From positions 124,001 through 188,000 of the forward strand of contig NZ_CDCG01000011.1 in NCBI RefSeq assembly GCF_000819845.1: 64,000 bases of DNA, given 5' to 3'. The DNA comes from Aeromonas enteropelogenes (GTDB lineage Bacteria > Pseudomonadota > Gammaproteobacteria > Enterobacterales > Aeromonadaceae). The notes under the pieces are model-generated. The model made no database searches and had not been told where the DNA came from. It saw only the letters and a list, made by a program, of their open reading frames with translations. Both the position numbers and the translations under genes were made by a program. Below are positions 54,548 through 64,000 of this stretch, piece after piece (position 1 is the first letter of the stretch; every line of letters begins with the position of its first letter).

Positions 54548-54811
54548 TCACCCCTTGTCGGTCATTTCGAAGAGGGCGACGAGTTCATATTCGAGTTCGT
54601 CAGCCAGAGCCAGCCAATCTTCACGTTCTTGTTGCTCCAGTATGCGCTTGATGAGCACGGGCAGCAGTTGCTGTTGTTGTGCCGGCCAGCCCAGGCTCTC
54701 GGATGCGGCTTGCTCCAGCAAGGCAGGAAGTGTCTGGATTGCCTCCAGAGACAAGCCAAGGCGAAAACGCTGCGCCAATGCAGTGAGTTGGGCTGTCAGA
54801 GAGGCACTCAT
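54548..54811 (-). CDS. Small hypothetical protein at the end of the pse/maf-2 operon
   Basis: 87-aa soluble helical protein rich in Leu and Gln. Its start overlaps the maf-2 stop by 4 bp (ATGA), so it belongs to the pseudaminic acid operon. No family recognised. Its size and helical nature would fit a small chaperone or adaptor, but this is speculation. Confidence 0.7.
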   Translation of the reverse strand: MSASLTAQLTALAQRFRLGLSLEAIQTLPALLEQAASESLGWPAQQQQLLPVLIKRILEQQEREDWLALADELEYELVALFEMTDKG

Positions 54812-56100
54812 TGGGTTATCTCCGGGTGATAGTGGCAGCCCTGGATATGCGCACCATCCTTGCTGGTGTTCCAGAAACGAACCTCGGGGTGACGATCTAT
54901 GTAGCGCTCCAGCTCACACAGGTAACCGGCAAAGTTCAGGGTCGTGGTCACCCGATTGCCATGGCCATCGTGCACCCAATGACGCGCTGTATGGGCACTC
55001 GGGCCAAGTGAACCATCTTGCCAACCGGTATGGGTTTGATTGCCCGGGAATGCGAAGTCGACGCCCATCAAGATGACATTGTTGGCCCCCATCTTGACGG
55101 CCAGATCCACGGCCGGGTGGATCACGCTCCCTCCTGAATGCAACACGCCTCTGGGCAAGCTGGTACGCAGGGCCTCATAGGTCTGGCTCATCGAGTAGGC
55201 GCCATAGCGCGGCCCCTGCCAGGCGGCCAGCGTCTCATGGGGCAGCATGGGGAAGTAGACCAGCTTGACCTCTTCGGAGCCGTGAGCTGGCAGCCTGTCC
55301 TGACCTATCAGGTGATCGATCGTGACGACCAGATCCGGCTTGATGTGGTGCGCGAGCAGCGTCTTGTAGGCCGTATCGACACATATGATGAGTGGTCGTG
55401 TGGGTAGTTTCGCAAGTCCGCCCAGATAGGGCAGGTGACGTGCCAGTGTCGGGCCGGTGGCGATGATCAGCGCCGTGCAGCCTGGCCGGGAGCCAAACAG
55501 CTTGGTCACGTCGGCATCGTGCGCCAGTAGCTCGCGATTGCTTTCTAGTCGCGCCAGGCGTTCGGGGTCATCGGCTTTGAAGCGCCGATTGACGAATGGC
55601 AGGTTGATCTCGCTGATCAGTCGATCCCGGATGCGGACGGCAGCATCGTCGACCAGCAGCAGCTCGGCCGGCAAGGCGAAGAAGGGTAATCGGATCTCCT
55701 GGTCATCTCCCGCGATGGTGAGCACGACCCTGGGATCAGCGAGCCAGTCATCCTGCTCCAGCAGGCGCAGCACCAGCGCAAACAGGGCGCCGTTCATGAT
55801 CTTCACTTCCAGACGGCGCAAGCTGCTGCGTTGCAACAGCACGCGGGGCAGATCGCCAAGTCCGGTGCCATAGATATGCAGTACGGGCTCTTCGGACAGG
55901 CTGGCGGCCTGCAGCTCGGCTTCTTTCCCCCTGTCGTGACGGCTGGTGAGCTGGATCCCGTCGACGCTGAGGGTGGAACCCAGTCCCTCGGTCAGTTCAA
56001 CCTGGAGGTGCGTTACATCTTGCGCCAACAGGCGGGGCCAGAGGGTGGGCCAGCGCTCGCTGATAAGCTGGCCATGGCGAGCAAGCAGTTCCTCATTCAT
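54808..56100 (-). CDS. maf2: Second Maf-family flagellin glycosyltransferase (Maf-2)
   Basis: 430-aa DUF115 protein, shorter than Maf-1. The MptE-like core has LIIATGPTLARHLPYLGGLA (about 206-225), ICVDTAYKTLLAHHIKPDLV and NNVILMGVDFAFPGNQTHT. It lacks the long C-terminal part of Maf-1. Overlaps pseI by 8 bp and the next small gene by 4 bp. Two Maf proteins in one genome could modify different flagellins, or lateral versus polar filaments (inference). Confidence 0.9.
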   Translation of the reverse strand: MNEELLARHGQLISERWPTLWPRLLAQDVTHLQVELTEGLGSTLSVDGIQLTSRHDRGKEAELQAASLSEEPVLHIYGTGLGDLPRVLLQRSSLRRLEVKIMNGALFALVLRLLEQDDWLADPRVVLTIAGDDQEIRLPFFALPAELLLVDDAAVRIRDRLISEINLPFVNRRFKADDPERLARLESNRELLAHDADVTKLFGSRPGCTALIIATGPTLARHLPYLGGLAKLPTRPLIICVDTAYKTLLAHHIKPDLVVTIDHLIGQDRLPAHGSEEVKLVYFPMLPHETLAAWQGPRYGAYSMSQTYEALRTSLPRGVLHSGGSVIHPAVDLAVKMGANNVILMGVDFAFPGNQTHTGWQDGSLGPSAHTARHWVHDGHGNRVTTTLNFAGYLCELERYIDRHPEVRFWNTSKDGAHIQGCHYHPEITQ

Positions 56101-57139
56101 CCTGTGCTATCCACTCCCAATCCAGCGGTTGGTTGGCGCTCATGTCCCGGATAACTCGCTTGCCGAGGAGGCGATCGTAATCGGCCGGGGGCAGGCCAAG
56201 GGCGGGCCGAACCGACTTGATGTGGGCTTCGGTCAGGCGCTCTCCGGCTGCAATCTCCTTGACCAGATAGAGGGAGCGGCGAAATGCGCGGTTGCCCTGC
56301 TCGCTCGGGGTGAGCTGATAGTCGGCCACGCCGAGCGCTGCCTGGGCGGTATTGACCGAGGCAACCAGTTCGGCAAGCTCGGTGGGCTCCATGGAGAAGG
56401 CGCAATCCGGTCCGCCATCCGCCCGGGCAAGAGTGAAGTGCTTCTCGATGAGGGTGGCGCCGAGCGCGGTCGCCGCGATGGCAGTGGCGCTGCCCAGCGT
56501 ATGGTCAGAAAGCCCCACCTCGACGCCAAAGCGCTGGCGCAGCATGGGGATGGCGCGCAGGTTGTATTCGGCCGCGGGCGCCGGATAGCCACTGACGCAG
56601 TGCAGCAGCGCCAGCTGGCAGTTGCCGTGTTTGAGCGCCATTTCGACCGCGGCGGCGATCTCGGCCTCATTCGCCATGCCGGTGGACATGATGAGGGGCT
56701 TGCCAGTCTGGGCGGCGTAGCGAATGAGGGGCAGGTCTACCAGCTCGAAGGAAGCAATCTTGTAAGCCGGGCAATCAAGGGATTCCAGCAAATCGACTGC
56801 GCTGAAATCGAACGGGCTGCTAAATACCGTGAGCCCCAGCTCGCGCCCCTTGGCAAACAGCGCCTGATGCCACTCCCAGGGGGTATGGGCCCACTCGTAG
56901 AGGTCATAAAGGCTGTGGCCATCCCACAGGCCGCCGTGGATCTGGAATTCGGGTCGTTCGCTTTTGAGGGTGATGGTATCGGGGCGATAGGTTTGCAGTT
57001 TGACTGCACTGGCTCCCGCCTCCTTGGCGGCAGTCATGATGGCCAGGGCGCGCTCCAGGTTGCCGTTGTGGTTGGCCGACAGTTCGGCGATCACATAGGG
57101 GCTCTGTATTGGGCCGATGGATTGATGGGCAATCTGCAT
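56093..57139 (-). CDS. pseI: Pseudaminic acid synthase
   Basis: 348-aa NeuB-family enzyme that condenses the 6-deoxy-2,4-diacetamido hexose with phosphoenolpyruvate to give pseudaminic acid. TIM-barrel domain (about 1-280) with VIAELSANHNGNLERAL, AVKLQTYRPDTIT and IMSTGMANEAEI, then a C-terminal SAF domain (about 288-345). The SANHN motif points to the PseI rather than the NeuB sialic acid type. In the operon between pseG (6-bp gap) and maf-2 (8-bp overlap). Confidence 0.93.
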   Translation of the reverse strand: MQIAHQSIGPIQSPYVIAELSANHNGNLERALAIMTAAKEAGASAVKLQTYRPDTITLKSERPEFQIHGGLWDGHSLYDLYEWAHTPWEWHQALFAKGRELGLTVFSSPFDFSAVDLLESLDCPAYKIASFELVDLPLIRYAAQTGKPLIMSTGMANEAEIAAAVEMALKHGNCQLALLHCVSGYPAPAAEYNLRAIPMLRQRFGVEVGLSDHTLGSATAIAATALGATLIEKHFTLARADGGPDCAFSMEPTELAELVASVNTAQAALGVADYQLTPSEQGNRAFRRSLYLVKEIAAGERLTEAHIKSVRPALGLPPADYDRLLGKRVIRDMSANQPLDWEWIAQDE

Positions 57140-57145
57140 CTGTGT

Positions 57146-58417
57146 TCAGGTTCCTGTACCAAGTTGCCAGCCTTGTGGCGCCGACTGCCAGGGGGCGGGG
57201 GGCGCATCTTGCGGCGGTTTGGCAAGATAAAGTGGGAATTGGGAAAAAATCTTTAGCAAGCGATATGCCAGCTCTTGCCAGTCTTGTGGTTTGAGTGGCT
57301 GGTGTGCCTGCCAGGCCAGCTGCTGGCCGCTTAGGTCAAGGGTGAGCAGGCGTGTCTCTGCCTGCCCGCCATCTTGTTGTAAAAATTGCCAGCGTTGGCC
57401 GTCGGGCCGCAGCTGATAGCCGGTCTGCGGCAGCAGCCAAGCGGTGAGGCGATCGAGCCCGAGGCCATCCACTTGCTGCTGACCGCGTTGGCGATAAGCC
57501 TCAGCCTCTTGTTCCAGTGAGTGCAAGGCCTGCGCGAGCCGTGAGGGGTCAGCGAGCTCGCTTAGCGTCAGGCGTTCGGCCAACTGGAAACGGGCGATCA
57601 CCTCATCATTGAACTGCTGGTTGTCGACGATGGGCACCACCAGGGTTGGCAGGCCGAGGCAGACACGCTCCCAGGTCATGCCGCCGGCGGCACCGATGGC
57701 AAAATCGTGGCGCGCCATCAACAGCGCCATCTGATCGCTCTGGCGCAACAAGTCGATGCGAAGTTCGGGCAGTTCGGCAACCCTCTGCTGCAATTCGTGC
57801 CAGAAAGGGTTGGCGCCGCCCGCCACCAGAGTCCACTGGATGGTGCGGGCCCAGGGTAGACGAGCCAAGCTGTTGAGGGTGGTGAGACAAGCGCCGGCCG
57901 GATCGGCGCCGCCAAAGCAGATGAGTCCCCGTTGCCACTGAGCGATGTCTCGGCGTGCAAGCTGTCGGAAGGCCGGGCGCAGCAGCGCATAGTCCGTTCC
58001 CAGCAGCAGGCGACAGTTGTCTGGTATCAGGGCTTGATAGTCGGCTGTGCTGCGCAAAGGCCCTTGGTCCAGCAGTAGCTGACAGTGATGCGGTCGATCC
58101 GCCAGATCGTCGATCACCAGCAACTGACTACAGTGGCACGCCAGCAAGGCTTCAAGGGGCTGGTCGATGGCGTAGTGATCGACGATAAGCCATGCAGGCC
58201 GCAGTCGGGGCAGGGGCCCCGCATCATCCAGCGCAGCCAGAGGGTGGTAGTGGTGCAGCTTAAGCAGGGGCAGTAGGTGAGTCGGCAACCCATAACAGAG
58301 AAAGTGGCACTCGGTCCCCGCCACCAGCAACCGATCGGCGATGGCCAGGCAGCGCATCAGATGGCCCAGCCCTATCTCGGGGCCTGCGTCGAGTCGAAAT
58401 GCGATATCAAACGTCAT
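57146..58417 (-). CDS. pseG: PseG UDP-sugar hydrolase with C-terminal extension
   Basis: Removes UDP from UDP-2,4-diacetamido-2,4,6-trideoxy-L-altrose in pseudaminic acid synthesis. The 423-aa protein has the GT-B-type fold with the catalytic His in GLGHLMRCLAIAD and the nucleotide-binding GAAGGMTWERVCLGLPTLV (about 253-271). Homologues are usually shorter; here residues from about 345 form an extra segment rich in Gln and Trp (including WQFLQQDGGQ). Overlaps pseF by 11 bp. The extension could be a degenerate or new domain. Confidence 0.88.
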   Translation of the reverse strand: MTFDIAFRLDAGPEIGLGHLMRCLAIADRLLVAGTECHFLCYGLPTHLLPLLKLHHYHPLAALDDAGPLPRLRPAWLIVDHYAIDQPLEALLACHCSQLLVIDDLADRPHHCQLLLDQGPLRSTADYQALIPDNCRLLLGTDYALLRPAFRQLARRDIAQWQRGLICFGGADPAGACLTTLNSLARLPWARTIQWTLVAGGANPFWHELQQRVAELPELRIDLLRQSDQMALLMARHDFAIGAAGGMTWERVCLGLPTLVVPIVDNQQFNDEVIARFQLAERLTLSELADPSRLAQALHSLEQEAEAYRQRGQQQVDGLGLDRLTAWLLPQTGYQLRPDGQRWQFLQQDGGQAETRLLTLDLSGQQLAWQAHQPLKPQDWQELAYRLLKIFSQFPLYLAKPPQDAPPAPWQSAPQGWQLGTGT

Positions 58418-59102
58418 GCTGGTGTAATACCCGATAGAGCAGTTCGGCCAGGTGCCAATCTTCCGGCGTATCGATGTCGACCACCCTGTGCCTTGGCAAT
58501 ATGTGTCCTATTCCTTCTCCGCCCACCGGGTTGATGCCGCCCAACCAGGCGGCGCGGCTGCCCCAGTAGAATTGTCCCGCATCCTGATAGGCGGGTTCCA
58601 GATCCTGAGAGCGCTTGGTCATCTGCCCTGGCCAGAAGGGGGTGACGCGTCCCTGCTCATCCATGCGTACTGCCCGTTGAATGGGAAAGCCGAATTCCGC
58701 CACCGAATAGACGAATGGGGCCTGGCTTGCGAGCAAGCGCTGATGGGCTGCCTTCAGGTCATCGGCCTGGATGAGCGGCACGGTGGCGTAAATGCAGCAG
58801 TAGTGATCGCTGGTGACACCGAGCTCGTCGAGCCGCCGGATAGCATCGATCACCACCGGGGTGGTGCCGGTGTGGTCGTCGGCGAGGCTGGCGGCGCGCA
58901 AAAAGGGTACGTCGGCACCGAGCTGGCGTGCCACGCAGGCGACCTCCTCATCATCGGTAGAGACCACAATCTGGCTGAAACACCCTGCCGCTTTGGCGGC
59001 GTTGATGGCATAGGCGAGCATGGGCTGGCCGCAGAAGGGACGGATATTCTTGCGCGGGATGCGCTTGCTGCCGCCTCGGGCCGGGATGATGGCGATGGCC
59101 AT
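58407..59102 (-). CDS. pseF: Pseudaminic acid cytidylyltransferase
   Basis: Activates pseudaminic acid to CMP-pseudaminic acid, the donor for Maf. The 231-aa product starts AIIPARGGSKRIPRKNIR (CTP-binding), has FGFPIQRAVRMDEQGRVTPF and DAGQFYWG typical of PseF, and VVDIDTPEDWHLAELLY at the end. ATG 59102 has GGAG six bases upstream. First gene of the minus-strand pse operon, divergent from pseH. Confidence 0.94.
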   Translation of the reverse strand: MAIAIIPARGGSKRIPRKNIRPFCGQPMLAYAINAAKAAGCFSQIVVSTDDEEVACVARQLGADVPFLRAASLADDHTGTTPVVIDAIRRLDELGVTSDHYCCIYATVPLIQADDLKAAHQRLLASQAPFVYSVAEFGFPIQRAVRMDEQGRVTPFWPGQMTKRSQDLEPAYQDAGQFYWGSRAAWLGGINPVGGEGIGHILPRHRVVDIDTPEDWHLAELLYRVLHQHDV

Positions 59103-59165: not shown

Positions 59166-59795
59166 ATGATGACAGTTGGCATGACCCAGGATCTTCGATT
59201 GAACTCATTGATGGCAAAAGAGATAATTGAAAATCACCGTGAAATGGACAGTGATATGACAGGTTTGAAAGAGTTTGCCCGCTACGGGGTCAAGCTGGTG
59301 GCGCTGGCACAGGATGATATCGAGATGGTGCGCCAGTGGCGCAACGATCCCAAGATTGCCGACCTGATGCTGGACAAGACCCATATCACGAGGGAGATGC
59401 AGCAGCAGTGGTTTGTCAGGCTGCAGCACGCGCAGGATCAGTTTTATTATCTGGTCTGGTTTAAAGATCAGCCCATCGGGGTCGCTTCTCTTATCAAAGT
59501 CAATCGTGACGCCGGGCATTGTGAACCGGGCATGTATATCTATGTCGATGAGTATCGCAACAACATAGTGCCCTTCTGCGTTGCCTTCGCCCTCAATGAT
59601 CTGGCCTTTGAAGGGCTGGGGCTGTCACAGCTGTTTGGCAAGATATTTGCCAGCAATCAGGCTTCTGTCCGCTTTCACGAGGCGTGTGGCTACCGTCTTT
59701 ACGAGACGCAGGAGGATGGCCTCGGTTTGTATGTGCTCGAACGGGAGGCCTATTTCGCCGCTCGCGCCAAAATCGCTCGTTTTATAAGGTATTGA
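59166..59795 (+). CDS. pseH: PseH-type N-acetyltransferase
   Basis: GNAT-fold enzyme that acetylates N4 of the altrosamine intermediate of pseudaminic acid. The core VRQWRNDPKIADLMLDKTHI is near residue 55, with the PseH-like SQLFGKIFASNQASVRFHEA and GYRLYETQEDG later. The frame opens at 59166 (209 aa), but homologues start about 30 residues later, so ATG 59256 (179 aa) or 59244 may be the true start; no strong ribosome site decides. Its stop overlaps the ACP start. Confidence 0.85.
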   Translation: MMTVGMTQDLRLNSLMAKEIIENHREMDSDMTGLKEFARYGVKLVALAQDDIEMVRQWRNDPKIADLMLDKTHITREMQQQWFVRLQHAQDQFYYLVWFKDQPIGVASLIKVNRDAGHCEPGMYIYVDEYRNNIVPFCVAFALNDLAFEGLGLSQLFGKIFASNQASVRFHEACGYRLYETQEDGLGLYVLEREAYFAARAKIARFIRY

Positions 59796-60025
59796 TGATG
59801 CAACTAGAACAGATTTTCTCCGATGCACTGGGCATCGAGCTTGAACAGGTTTCCGATGCGCTCAGCTATCAGGGGATCCCCCAGTGGGACTCCGTCGCCC
59901 ATATGGGCCTGATTGCCCAGCTGGAGGATCACTACGGTGTGCTGCTCGATACCGATGACATCATCGACATGAGCTCGGTCGCCAAGGCGCGGGAGATCCT
60001 GGCTAAATATGGCGTCGCCCTCTGA
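59795..60025 (+). CDS. Acyl carrier protein
   Basis: 76-aa acidic protein with the phosphopantetheine site WDSVAHM (Ser33), shaped like FabC/AcpP-type carriers. It overlaps pseH by one base (TGATG) and the SDR gene likewise, so it is part of the glycosylation operon and not fatty-acid synthesis. Probably carries the acyl group worked on by the downstream ligase, SDR, LuxE-like and LuxC-like proteins. Confidence 0.88.
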   Translation: MMQLEQIFSDALGIELEQVSDALSYQGIPQWDSVAHMGLIAQLEDHYGVLLDTDDIIDMSSVAKAREILAKYGVAL

Positions 60026-60774
60026 TGACCGGCCTGTTGCAGGGTAAACGGGTACTGATCACCGGCGCTGGGCGCGGCATCGGTCTCGCCATCGCCCGGC
60101 AGTTTGCCGCCCAGGGCGCCGAGTTGTGGCTCAATGGTCGCGATGAGGAGGCCATCACCCGGATGGTAGAGGCGCTCGGCGTCGAGTTTGGCGTGCCTTG
60201 TATACCGCTTTGCTTCGATGTGGCCGATCCGCAGGCGGTCAAGCAGGCCTTCCAGCAACTCTTTGGCCAGACCCGCCAGCTGGACGTGCTGGTCAACAAT
60301 GCTGGGGTGCTGGACGATGCGCTGCTCGGCATGGTCCAGCAGCAGCAGATAGAGCGCACCTTCGCGACCAACAGTTACAGCACCCTCTATTGCAGCCAGT
60401 ATGCGGCTCGCCTGATGCAACGCTCCGGCGGGGGCAGCATCATCAACATGGCGTCCATCATTGGCCGGGTAGGCAATGCCGGCCAAGCCGTCTATGCCGG
60501 CAGCAAGGCGGCGGTGATCGGGATTACCCAGTCACTGGCCAAAGAGCTGGCCGCGAGCCAGATCCGGGTCAATGCCATCGCCCCCGGCTTCATCGATACC
60601 GACATGGCGCGCTCTCTGCCGCCAGCCAAGTTTGACGAACGGGTAGCCAGCATCGCCATGGGGCGCATCGGCACGCCGGACGAGGTCGCCAGCGTGGCAC
60701 TGTTCCTGGCCTCGGATCTCTCCCGTTATGTCACCGGTCAGGTGATCGGGGTCGATGGAGGCATGCTGATTTGA
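60025..60774 (+). CDS. SDR oxidoreductase (FabG-like)
   Basis: 249-aa short-chain dehydrogenase. NAD(P) site VLITGAGRGIGLAIARQF, NNAG, catalytic Ser in NMASIIGRVG and YAGSKAAVIG (Tyr and Lys), and a C-terminus ending VIGVDGGMLI. Looks like a 3-oxoacyl-ACP reductase, consistent with acting on an ACP-bound 3-oxoacyl group. Overlaps the ACP stop and the next gene start. Confidence 0.93.
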   Translation: MTGLLQGKRVLITGAGRGIGLAIARQFAAQGAELWLNGRDEEAITRMVEALGVEFGVPCIPLCFDVADPQAVKQAFQQLFGQTRQLDVLVNNAGVLDDALLGMVQQQQIERTFATNSYSTLYCSQYAARLMQRSGGGSIINMASIIGRVGNAGQAVYAGSKAAVIGITQSLAKELAASQIRVNAIAPGFIDTDMARSLPPAKFDERVASIAMGRIGTPDEVASVALFLASDLSRYVTGQVIGVDGGMLI

Positions 60775-62129
60775 GCGCACCCGACTTGCTAACCCATCTG
60801 GTGGTGGGCAATAGCGCCCCTGCCTGGCGGGATCCCGATGAAGGCTGGCTTAGCTACGGCGAGCTGGCGCAGCGGGTAGCACGGCTCGCCAAAGCCTACC
60901 CGAGCGGGCGTCAGCTGATCTATCTGCCCTTTGTGACCTCAACTCGTCACCTGCTTCACTACCTGCTGGCCTTGCGTGATGGTCATGCAGTCATGCTGGC
61001 CGATCCGGCCCAGGACGAGGAGACGCGCCGTGCCCTGTGCGAGCGGTTTGGCGCGAGCCTGGTCGTGACTGCGGAAGGTTGCCTCGTGCACCTTGGCGAG
61101 GCACCCGCTTTGCATCCAGAGCTTGCCTTGCTGCTGCCAACCTCCGGCAGCACGGGATCCAGCAAGTGGGTGCGGATCTCTCGGAACAGCCTCAATGCCA
61201 ACGCCGCCGCCATCGCCGAGTATCTGGCGCTGGATAGTGCGGAGCGAGCGATCACCAGCCTGCCGATCTTCTACTCCTTTGGCATGTCGGTGCTCAACAG
61301 CCATCTGCTGGTGGGCGCCTCGCTGGTGCAGAGCGCGGCCAGCCCTCTCGAACGCCAGTTTTGGGAGGAGGTCAATGCCCATCGGGTCACCAGCGTGGCC
61401 GGGGTGCCTTTCACTTTCCAGATGCTGAGTCGTTTGCGCTTTGACTGGCGCCGTTACCCCAGTCTCATGACCCTGACCCAGGCCGGTGGGCGCCTCGAAC
61501 CGACCTTGGCGAGCCAGTTCGCCCATCAGGCCGAGTCACTGGGGCGTCGTTTTTTTGTCATGTATGGCCAGACCGAGGCGGCGCCGCGCATCGCCTGGTT
61601 GGGGCATGACGAAGTGCTGGTAGCCCCGGATGCCATCGGTCGCGCCGTACCGGGAGGGCATCTCTCTTTGCGTCCCGAGCCGGGACTGCCCGAAGGGGAG
61701 GGAGAGCTGGTCTATGAAGGCCCCAACGTCATGCTGGGTTATGCCGAAGGCATGGCTGAGCTGGCGCGCGGGCGCGAGGTGGAGGCTCTCTTTACCGGTG
61801 ATCTGGCCCGCTGCGACGAGGCCGGACGGTTCTACCTGACCGGGCGTCTCAATCGCTTCCTGAAGCTCTTTGGCAAACGGGTGAGTCTGGCCGAGGTGGA
61901 GAGCTGGTTGCAGGCTCGGGGCCACTCCTGCGCCGCGACCGGTCGCGACGATCGCCTGCTGGTAGCCATCGAAGGGGAAGAGGTTGCATGCGATGTGCTG
62001 CAGATCGAGGTTGCCCGCTGGTTGATGGTACCCCCCTCCTGCGTTCGCATTCGCATGCAGCCGCTGCCACGACGCAGCAATATGAAGATTGATTACCCGG
62101 CCCTGCTGACCCTGTTGGAGGCATCATGA
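60771..62129 (+). CDS. AMP-forming acyl/amino-acyl ligase (AMP-binding family)
   Basis: 452-aa adenylating enzyme. The core signature LLPTSGSTGSSKWVRIS (A3-like) is at about residues 120-136, YGQTEAAPR (A5) at about 265, FTGDLARCDEAGRFYLTGRL (A7) at about 343-362, and the C-terminal lysine in NMKIDY (residue 439). The start is TTG 60771, overlapping the SDR stop (TTGA). Shorter than typical acyl-CoA synthetases; probably activates an acid for loading onto the ACP. Substrate unknown. Confidence 0.9.
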   Translation: MSAPDLLTHLVVGNSAPAWRDPDEGWLSYGELAQRVARLAKAYPSGRQLIYLPFVTSTRHLLHYLLALRDGHAVMLADPAQDEETRRALCERFGASLVVTAEGCLVHLGEAPALHPELALLLPTSGSTGSSKWVRISRNSLNANAAAIAEYLALDSAERAITSLPIFYSFGMSVLNSHLLVGASLVQSAASPLERQFWEEVNAHRVTSVAGVPFTFQMLSRLRFDWRRYPSLMTLTQAGGRLEPTLASQFAHQAESLGRRFFVMYGQTEAAPRIAWLGHDEVLVAPDAIGRAVPGGHLSLRPEPGLPEGEGELVYEGPNVMLGYAEGMAELARGREVEALFTGDLARCDEAGRFYLTGRLNRFLKLFGKRVSLAEVESWLQARGHSCAATGRDDRLLVAIEGEEVACDVLQIEVARWLMVPPSCVRIRMQPLPRRSNMKIDYPALLTLLEAS

Positions 62130-63181
62130 ACAGGTTGCTGGAGTCCCCCGTTTTCGACCTTGTCCAGCAGGAGAAGTCGGCTCTGTTGCTGGCGCGCCTC
62201 AACGAGCTGACTGCCCGGCATCAGCAAGCTTGTCCCCCTTACGCCAATATCTTGTCGGCCTTTGGCTGGGGGCAAGCTACGTCTTGCGCTGAGCTACCCT
62301 ATCTCGCCGCGCGCCTGTTCAAACTGGCCAAATGGCAGAGCGTGCCAGAGGAGGAGGTGTTCAAGGTACTGACCTCATCGGGCACCACGGGGGCGCCGTC
62401 GCGGATAGTGCTGGATCGGGAGACCGCCGCCCTGCAGAGCAAGGTGCTGGTGAAGATCCTGCAGGAGTTTGTCGGCAAGCAGCGTCTGCCCATGTTGCTG
62501 GTGGAGCAACCCGCGCTTATTCAGAATCGCAGCGGTTTTTCGGCTCGCGGGGCGGGGGCCCTGGGGCTCTCCTTCCTCGGGCGTGATCATACCTATGCCC
62601 TTGATGAGCAGATGCGGCCCAACTGGCCGGTCATCGAGGCATTTTGTGACAAATACGCCGGTCAGCCCGTGTTACTGTTTGGCTTTACCTTCATGGTGTG
62701 GCAGTGCCTGCTGGAGCCGCTACGCGAGCGTGGTATACAGCTGCCCTTTGCCGAGGGCATCCTGTTTCACAGTGGGGGCTGGAAGAAATTGCAGCATCTG
62801 GCGGTGGACAATCCGGCCTTCAAGCTGCGCTGTCACGAGCAACTGGGTTTGCGTCGGGTGCACAATTTTTACGGCATGGTGGAGCAGGTGGGCTCGGTCT
62901 TCGTCGAGTGTGAACAGGGTCATCTCCATGCCCCCGTGTTTGCCGATCTGCTGGTGCGTGATCCGCTGACCCATCAACCGCTGGGGATGGGCCGGCTGGG
63001 CCTGTTGCAGGTGCTCTCGGCCATTCCCGGCAGTTATCCGGGTCACAGCCTGTTGACCGAAGATCTTGGCGTCTTGCTGGGAGAGGATGACTGCCCTTGT
63101 GGCCGCCGTGGCCGTTATTTTCATGTATCAGGGCGCCAGCCGGGCGCCGAGGTGAGAGGATGCAGCGACACCTTCCAGTAA
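62126..63181 (+). CDS. LuxE-like acyl-protein synthetase
   Basis: 351-aa homologue of the LuxE subunit of bioluminescence fatty acid reductase, which forms an acyl-AMP and then an acyl-enzyme thioester. The ATP motif SSGTTGAPSRIVLDRE is near residue 90, and a Cys lies six residues from the C-terminus in the EVRGCSDTFQ tail, matching the acyl-accepting Cys of LuxE. Overlaps the ligase by 4 bp and luxC by 22 bp. No luciferase genes are seen, so the role is in the glycan, not light. Confidence 0.92.
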   Translation: MNRLLESPVFDLVQQEKSALLLARLNELTARHQQACPPYANILSAFGWGQATSCAELPYLAARLFKLAKWQSVPEEEVFKVLTSSGTTGAPSRIVLDRETAALQSKVLVKILQEFVGKQRLPMLLVEQPALIQNRSGFSARGAGALGLSFLGRDHTYALDEQMRPNWPVIEAFCDKYAGQPVLLFGFTFMVWQCLLEPLRERGIQLPFAEGILFHSGGWKKLQHLAVDNPAFKLRCHEQLGLRRVHNFYGMVEQVGSVFVECEQGHLHAPVFADLLVRDPLTHQPLGMGRLGLLQVLSAIPGSYPGHSLLTEDLGVLLGEDDCPCGRRGRYFHVSGRQPGAEVRGCSDTFQ

Positions 63182-64000
63182 CCCCTTCGCAGGCTTTGCA
63201 GTGGCAGGGAGGTCCCAAGGTTAGTTTCGTGGCCCCTCTGGCGGATTGGTATGGTTTTATTGCCGACCCCTTGCCCTGCTTTGCCCCCGTCATCTGCGAT
63301 TTCTTGGCGGCGCTGTCGACCCGTTTGCAGCAGGAGGGGCGGCGTTATCCCGATCTGGCCGCGCTGGGTTTCTGGCTTCGCCCGAGGAATATTGATGAGC
63401 AGCGCAAGCGCATGGCGGGGCGCATGCCGCTTGGTATGGTTTTTCATCTGGTGCCCTCCAACGTCCCGACAGTGGCCTTCTACTCCTGGTTGATGGCGCT
63501 CTTGACGGGCAACAGCTCGGTGGTGCGTCTCTCATCACGGATTGATCCGATGCAGGAGGCCATGCTGGCCATCCTGAACGAGCTGTTTCAACAACCTGGG
63601 TGGCGCCCTGTTACCGAGCGTACCCGCTTCGTGCGTTACGGCCATGACGAGGGGATCACCGCCTGGCTGTCGGATCGCTGTCGCCTGCGCATCGTCTGGG
63701 GGGGCGATGAAACCATCCGCCGGGTGCGAGCCATTCCGCTCTCCCCGAATGCCCAGGAAGTGGTGTTTCCGGATCGCCGTTCCATGGCGGTGCTCGACAG
63801 TCGTTGGCTGGCAGGACTGCCGCCAGAACGATTGCAGCAAGTGCTGTCGGCCCTGCAGCAGGACTGTACCCGCTTCAATCAGCGGGCGTGCGCCTCGCCG
63901 ACTACCCTCTGCTGGTTGGGAGAGCCAGATAATGACCTGCGCCGGCATGTGCTGGAGGCGGTGTTTGCTCCCTTCGCCCAGGATCCCGCGTTGGCCATGG
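63160..64000 (+). CDS. LuxC-like acyl reductase, partial at window end
   Basis: The first 280 residues of a LuxC-family acyl-CoA/acyl-enzyme reductase (aldehyde dehydrogenase fold), open to the window edge. Seen: LVPSNVPTVAFYSWLMALLTG (about 98-118), VWGGDETIRRVRAIPL (about 179-194) and the active-site Cys244 in NQRACASPTT. The ATG at 63160 has GAGAGG directly upstream and overlaps the LuxE-like gene by 22 bp. Together they would reduce an acid to an aldehyde, or an activated acyl group for the sugar. Confidence 0.93.
   Translation, partial: MQRHLPVTPSQALQWQGGPKVSFVAPLADWYGFIADPLPCFAPVICDFLAALSTRLQQEGRRYPDLAALGFWLRPRNIDEQRKRMAGRMPLGMVFHLVPSNVPTVAFYSWLMALLTGNSSVVRLSSRIDPMQEAMLAILNELFQQPGWRPVTERTRFVRYGHDEGITAWLSDRCRLRIVWGGDETIRRVRAIPLSPNAQEVVFPDRRSMAVLDSRWLAGLPPERLQQVLSALQQDCTRFNQRACASPTTLCWLGEPDNDLRRHVLEAVFAPFAQDPALAM

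Follow-up and report, generated by a model that had tools for sequence, protein, structure and literature searches.

Group II flagellar glycosylation islands of Aeromonas share a core composed of orf1-orf2-orf3-luxE-luxC-fgi-1 (Forn-Cuni et al. 2021, PMC7874193). In that report the cassette is read as 'fatty acid synthesis' and a 'liposugar' is suggested, without mutants of these five genes. Flagellin islands with Acp/LuxE/LuxC/CaiC/FabG have also been described in Enterobacteriaceae (De Maayer and Cowan 2016, PMC4875605); these carry the same cassette, but mostly without pse genes, and in Lelliottia and Erwinia records it has genes for a DegT-type aminotransferase and a PglD-like acyltransferase in its neighbourhood. 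Here, we analyse such a cassette in a 64,000-nucleotide stretch of Aeromonas enteropelogenes (the window; G000:C11:124001-188000, part of a 4.47-Mb draft genome), where it is headed by a variant of pseH, the N-acyltransferase gene of pseudaminic acid (Pse) synthesis. The locus matches the Group II islands in gene content without difference: the same genes stand in the same order, an fgi-1-like gene comes next, maf-2 lies by pseI, and the layout is that of subgroup IIA. The cassette arrangement is, therefore, already published, as the first-pass annotation of this DNA stated for the larger islands of mesophilic Aeromonas; the variant status of PseH, not recognised in the islands as published, is new here.

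A second system of interest is the O1 antigen of Vibrio cholerae, in which 3-deoxy-L-glycero-tetronyl is carried on a 4-amino sugar, perosamine. In PMC3441752, citing Morona et al. 1995, the tetronate genes VC0248-VC0252 (wbe/rfb K-O) are described as including RfbL, an Fe-alcohol dehydrogenase (FeADH), the LuxE-LuxC protein RfbN and an acetyltransferase. By description, these genes resemble the Aeromonas cassette in kind of enzyme (AMP-ligase, LuxE and LuxC, a dehydrogenase that forms an alcohol, and a neighbouring N-acyltransferase acting on a 4-amino sugar), but the dehydrogenase is an FeADH rather than a short-chain dehydrogenase/reductase (SDR), LuxE and LuxC are fused, and the acceptor is perosamine rather than a Pse precursor. 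VC0248 is, we presume, an acyl carrier protein (ACP). We tentatively propose, at rather less than an even chance, that a PseH clade of some 16 genera switched from acetyl-coenzyme A (acetyl-CoA) to acyl-ACP, with a portable acid-reductase cassette as the source, and that Aeromonas Pse may bear a tetronyl group of the cholera O1 type.

The PseH of the window scored 84.9 bits against TIGR03585, under the curated cut-off of 93.1. Among the matches listed, all cassette-linked PseH proteins fell under this cut-off except that of G278 (98.9 bits, marginal), and in an Aeromonas sample PseH exceeded it in eight of 13 cassette-less genomes versus none of eight cassette genomes (Fisher p=0.007). When 395 genomes of the order were searched with a cassette-type PseH profile, 32 matches at 191-251 bits, and one truncated at a contig end, were separated by a clean gap from the next unrelated match at 112 bits. 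All 33 genomes with a cassette-type PseH, representing about 16 genera, were among the 60 that carry LuxE-family proteins (hypergeometric 6e-32, a value that ignores kinship); the count of 60 takes in bioluminescent LuxE and some weak matches. PseH was located at most 1.5 kb from the ACP in 40 cassette loci, usually directly adjoining it. The exception is G087, where a variant PseH lies beside a second ligase (L249:8836-11159) with no recognised ACP, LuxE or LuxC, the full cassette being 64 kb off on the same contig. In a tree calculated with the loop columns left out, 42 cassette-linked PseH proteins formed one clade (SH-like approximate likelihood ratio test, SH-aLRT, 99) with no cassette-less member.

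Forty-four cassette PseH proteins were compared with 28 canonical ones, using Helicobacter pylori PseH numbering and residue roles from the H. pylori PseH-acetyl-CoA structure (PMC4363471). Neither set shows any variation at Arg30, Tyr94 and Asn131, which contact the sugar and pantetheine. Gly103, the CoA-pyrophosphate glycine, is present in 28/28 canonical proteins but in only 1/44 cassette proteins, being Pro in the window protein, while a basic residue at position 133 (Lys/Arg) occurs in 14/28 and 0/44, respectively. Residue 91 is bulky (W/L/F) in 24 of the 28 canonical proteins and in one of the 44 cassette proteins, where it is mostly Pro or Ala; Glu126 is found in 19 of the former and none of the latter. 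From these alignments, cassette PseH is predicted to have lost the CoA-pyrophosphate contacts and to possess an enlarged acetyl pocket. The structure predicted for the window protein (AlphaFold2, pLDDT 93.4) has H. pylori PseH, 4RI1, as its best PDB match (TM 0.78/0.80). It thus shares the fold, the UDP-sugar contacts and the pantetheine contact of canonical PseH (4RI1 and Campylobacter jejuni 4XPK; TIGR03585), but is without the CoA-pyrophosphate glycine and the basic residue, has an apparently opened pocket and remains below the equivalog cut-off. Since the sugar and pantetheine contacts are kept, the CoA head contacts lost and the pocket wider, the economical reading is an acyl-ACP donor with a larger acyl group and the same acceptor, and we consider it likely that PseH receives its acyl group from acyl-ACP. 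A literature search for PseH together with an acyl carrier protein returned nothing pertinent beyond the island papers. A strict rule equating the cassette with loss of the P-loop glycine was discarded, as it fails outside Proteobacteria, where L168 has an ordinary GNAT loop beside the ACP.

The enzymes encoded behind pseH have conserved catalytic residues. The phosphopantetheine Ser of the ACP is kept in 123/123 related loci, the acyl-accepting Cys346 of LuxE in 133/133, the catalytic Cys244 of LuxC in 123/123, and the Ser/Tyr/Lys triad of the SDR in 88/88; the catalytic residues of all of them are also intact in the window proteins. NCBIfam matches of the ligase include AmcH, a 2-oxoglutaryl-ACP ligase (6e-25, but far under its cut-off). 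LuxE and LuxC take a carboxylate down to the aldehyde, and a ligase with an ACP activates a carboxylate as a thioester. The bioluminescence system LuxCDE has the LuxE and LuxC domains and catalytic cysteines in common with the cassette, which, however, has no LuxD and brings its own ACP and ligase. Against the bioluminescence equivalogs, LuxE scored 50 bits (cut-off 550) and LuxC 42 (cut-off 750). The first-pass annotation had seen no bioluminescence genes, and indeed LuxD was not found in this genome by a search that was positive in three bioluminescent relatives; a role in bioluminescence was rejected on the strength of this absence and of the working controls.

Published flagellin masses bear on the identity of the acyl group. 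The Group II strain A. piscicola AH-3 has an unexplained flagellin linker of 376.14 Da and a 102-Da unit in its heptasaccharide; of two characterised cassette-less Group I strains, AH-1 has 403 Da and A. caviae Sch3 plain Pse5Ac7Ac. Computed masses are 232.106 for Pse without acyl groups (C9H16N2O5) and 376.148 Da for Pse5Ac7(C4H6O3), in which C4H6O3 (102.03) corresponds to 2,4-dihydroxybutyryl, while a heptasaccharide carrying two C4H6O3 groups computes to 1491.490, with 1491.5 observed in AH-3. A dihydroxy-C4 acyl is favoured because it fits the 376.14 mass and employs all five enzymes, and our best guess, held at a little under even confidence, is 2,4-dihydroxybutyryl (3-deoxy-tetronyl). 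No pseudaminic acid with dihydroxybutyryl was found in a literature search.

These masses also bear on other products. The first-pass annotation proposed that a 3-hydroxyacyl group, or one derived from an aldehyde, is built on the ACP and then joined to Pse or the flagellin glycan; assembly on the ACP and transfer to Pse are supported by the ACP-type residues of PseH, but the simple 3-hydroxyacyl version is not, as 3-hydroxybutyryl would give 360.15 Da, not 376.14. An ACP bearing 3-hydroxybutyryl, formed by the ligase and the SDR from acetoacetate while LuxE and LuxC serve another step, would suit the FabG-like character of the SDR, and nonulosonic acids commonly carry 3-hydroxybutyryl as an N-acyl group. 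Besides missing the mass, it would leave the invariant LuxE and LuxC without a role, whereas the SDR is the member absent from some loci, and we regard this reading as quite improbable. It is very unlikely that the LuxC aldehyde remains unreduced and is itself the reactive product, entering carbon-carbon or amine reactions with the sugar: apparent transketolase halves in some non-Pse cassettes (L074) and the SDR-less Pse loci would accord with this, but the Aeromonas cassette contains neither transketolase nor aminotransferase, and the N-acyl aldehyde form would weigh 374.13 Da. Similarly, we give little credence to a long-chain fatty aldehyde or acyl group destined for a lipid-bearing glycan, the 'liposugar' of both island papers (PMC7874193, PMC4875605). 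The homology of LuxE, LuxC and ACP to fatty-acid reductase speaks for it; however, no published AH-3 glycopeptide mass requires a long chain, C4H6O3 accounting for every unit, LuxD is absent, and LuxE and LuxC are far under the bioluminescence cut-offs. Such a lipid product was rejected on the published masses and family scores.

The 102-Da unit invites a further explanation, namely that the cassette makes this distal unit of the heptasaccharide, the acyl-ACP being used by a transferase of the fgi region, and PseH works with acetyl-CoA. In its favour, the nominal mass agrees and an fgi-1 mutant lacks the unit (published AH-3 data); other transferases and another ACP-SDR-ligase set are also present in the island. 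Yet the operon is headed by PseH and not by an fgi gene, PseH is tied to the cassette in every genome that carries the cassette type, its acyl pocket and CoA contacts are unlike the canonical ones, and the 376-Da linker would be left without explanation. We therefore consider this unlikely as a replacement for the transfer to Pse, although the two are not exclusive, as one acyl could serve both places.

On balance, we find it probable that the five genes would make a short hydroxylated acyl-ACP, from which the ACP-using PseH of the operon would move the acyl onto a Pse precursor. In this pathway, the ligase would load a C4 acid onto the ACP, malate being the natural candidate, LuxE would activate the other carboxylate on its Cys, and LuxC would reduce the LuxE-bound carboxylate to the aldehyde. 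The SDR would turn this aldehyde (alternatively, a keto-acyl-ACP) into the alcohol, giving 2,4-dihydroxybutyryl-ACP. PseH would then pass the acyl to the 4-amino group of UDP-4-amino-4,6-dideoxy-AltNAc, and the product would be Pse5Ac7(C4H6O3), a flagellin pseudaminic acid whose N7 bears an acyl group other than acetyl.

With respect to the cholera pathway, two relatives with the arrangement ACP-ligase(473)-FeADH(374)-LuxE/LuxC fusion(825) were found (L066/L067). The proteins of the L067-type set are homologous to those of Aeromonas, with identities of 31% (LuxE), 27% (LuxC), 27% (ligase) and 38% (ACP). A search of 228 Vibrio-type genomes returned WbeN-like fusions, none identifiable as O1.

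Several points weigh against the donor switch and the proposed acyl group. The cassette-type PseH clade represents one event kept through deep divergence and not many independent ones. Atypical P-loops also occur in CoA-using GNATs, H. pylori PseH itself having been called atypical, and some Firmicutes cassette loci retain Glu126 and a bulky residue 91. The SDR is missing from four Alteromonadaceae-type loci; the core would therefore be ACP, ligase, LuxE and LuxC. Isomeric acyl options (lactyl twice, formyl plus dimethylglyceroyl, or O-methylglyceroyl) also give 376.148, and it is assumed that the PseH of AH-3 is of the cassette type. Finally, the likeness to V. cholerae is one by kind of enzyme, drawn without a V. 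cholerae protein in the comparison, and the tetronate pathway is itself described as putative.

The N-acyl groups of Pse shape filament assembly and the recognition of flagella by hosts, phages and antibodies. If the donor switch is true, many genomes annotated as makers of Pse5Ac7Ac would make something else, membership of the PseH clade would predict non-acetyl Pse from sequence, and the 376-Da linker of Aeromonas flagellin, perhaps also the 102-Da unit, would be accounted for. The proposal also ties flagellin sugars to the cholera O1 antigen pathway. Its claim, which is new and open to testing, is that a PseH clade has switched donor and draws on an acid-reductase cassette, and mass spectrometry could decide the purpose of luxE and luxC as well as the nature of the 376- and 102-Da units.

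The order PseH-ACP-(SDR)-ligase-LuxE-LuxC is repeated across many gammaproteobacterial genera, and named records with the cassette include Clostridium, Bacteroidales, Stenotrophomonas, Shewanella, Alteromonas, Enterobacteriaceae and others; in a plasmid collection, LuxE/LuxC matches were weak only. At loci without Pse genes, the ACP often lies beside another sugar N-acyltransferase, of the PglD type (L093, L140, L174, L201), and a DegT aminotransferase. In a Vibrio-type genome (G275, L250:4164-9134), a GNAT related to the PseH variant, with P-loop glycines absent by eye, adjoins a KAS III, an ACP, two SDRs and a ligase; this set perhaps makes a different ACP-borne acyl, maybe 3-hydroxybutyryl, for another amino sugar. 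Because the ACP is paired with another N-acyltransferase at non-Pse loci, and a PseH-variant-like GNAT with ketosynthase, ACP, SDR and ligase at L250, the cassette may tentatively be viewed as a portable unit whose acyl-ACP serves 4-amino sugars. Within an Enterobacteriaceae-type LuxE/LuxC cassette (L074:11367-13153), and perhaps also at L170, there are apparently two transketolase halves, as if the LuxC aldehyde were lengthened by two carbons.

Within Aeromonas, pseH has a history of its own. The window PseH shares only 27-31% identity with those of 14 other Aeromonas cassettes and 66% with that of L117, whereas PseF, PseI, ACP and LuxE are 73-94% identical to their counterparts in other Aeromonas cassettes. 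The guanine-cytosine (GC) content of pseH is 51.4%, versus 62-64% in pseF, SDR and ligase. Judged by these values, pseH appears to have been replaced in place by an incoming allele. As the newcomer is again a member of the cassette clade, an ACP-type property seems to be required. Furthermore, the type of fgi-1 changes together with the pseH allele: in the window, in L117 and in the Shewanella locus L078, the PseH proteins are related and the Fgi-1 proteins are closer to each other than to those of other Aeromonas.

The features of the locus are collected in Table 1. The order of genes from pseH to luxC given by the first-pass annotation agrees with the coordinates and Pfam matches, and its single operon is upheld, as neighbouring genes from pseH through acp, SDR, ligase and luxE to luxC overlap by 1 to 22 bases and form one tightly packed operon. 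Its picture of a cassette joined to a pseudaminic acid island stands insofar as the pse genes adjoin; however, pseF, pseG and pseI lie on the opposite strand, and pseH heads the cassette operon, divergent from them. The true start of pseH may alternatively be 59211 or 59244.

Table 1. Features of the pseudaminic acid locus and the adjoining cassette (positions in the window).
Feature	Position	Strand	Match or remark
pseH (variant), GNAT-fold N-acyltransferase, operon head	59166..59795	+	Acetyltransf_3 6e-15
acp, acyl carrier protein, 76 amino acids	59795..60025	+	PP-binding PF00550 2.1e-5; phosphopantetheine Ser in WDSVAHM
FabG-like SDR	60025..60774	+	adh_short_C2 PF13561 8.2e-69; glycine motif, Ser, Tyr-x3-Lys intact
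AMP-forming ligase, TTG start, proposed ACP loader	60771..62129	+	AMP-binding PF00501 1.1e-33; motifs intact
LuxE-like acyl-protein synthetase	62126..63181	+	PF04443 2.3e-40
LuxC-like reductase	63160..64000 (cut by window edge)	+	PF05893 3.5e-26 on full protein
pseF, CMP-pseudaminic acid synthetase	58407..59102	-	TIGR03584 328 bits (cut-off 205.7)
pseG, UDP-sugar hydrolase with C-terminal extension of ~150 amino acids	57146..58417	-	TIGR03590 288.5 bits, residues 3-272 only
pseI, pseudaminic acid synthase	56093..57139	-	PF03102 4.6e-90, and SAF
maf-2, motility accessory factor (MptE-like domain)	54808..56100	-	PF01973 5.8e-32; adjoins pseI; position as maf-2 of Group II islands
maf-1-like gene, 701 amino acids	52341..54446	+	Assigned by place and similarity to related loci, without family model

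The maf-1-like gene comes after fliD- and fliS-like genes, which places the island beside polar flagellum genes, as in the subgroup IIA layout. Group II islands have pseBC at their far end; in this genome, pseB and pseC are located on contig C42, contig C11 stopping before the island does. The C-terminal ~150 amino acids of PseG extend beyond the PseG model, and similar lengths are seen in other Aeromonas (mostly 418-423 amino acids); a family search reported no PseH domain in this extension.

Beyond the window, luxC ends at L003:7360, which is window position 64359 and 359 bases past the edge. The fgi-1-like GT2 glycosyltransferase lies downstream of luxC at L003:7531-8484 (GT2 6.8e-28), followed by a UDP-galactopyranose-mutase-like gene and many glycan genes to the contig end. 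The second ACP-SDR-ligase set of the island, without LuxE and LuxC, lies outside the window at L004:4536-6792 (C11:204536-206792); its ACP has a DSM motif and no Pfam match, and upstream of it are a DegT aminotransferase, a C-methyltransferase and nucleotide-sugar genes reading like rfbF/rfbG. Four glycan genes at L003:11945-17188 have a GC content of 36-39% and adjoin a region of ~61%.

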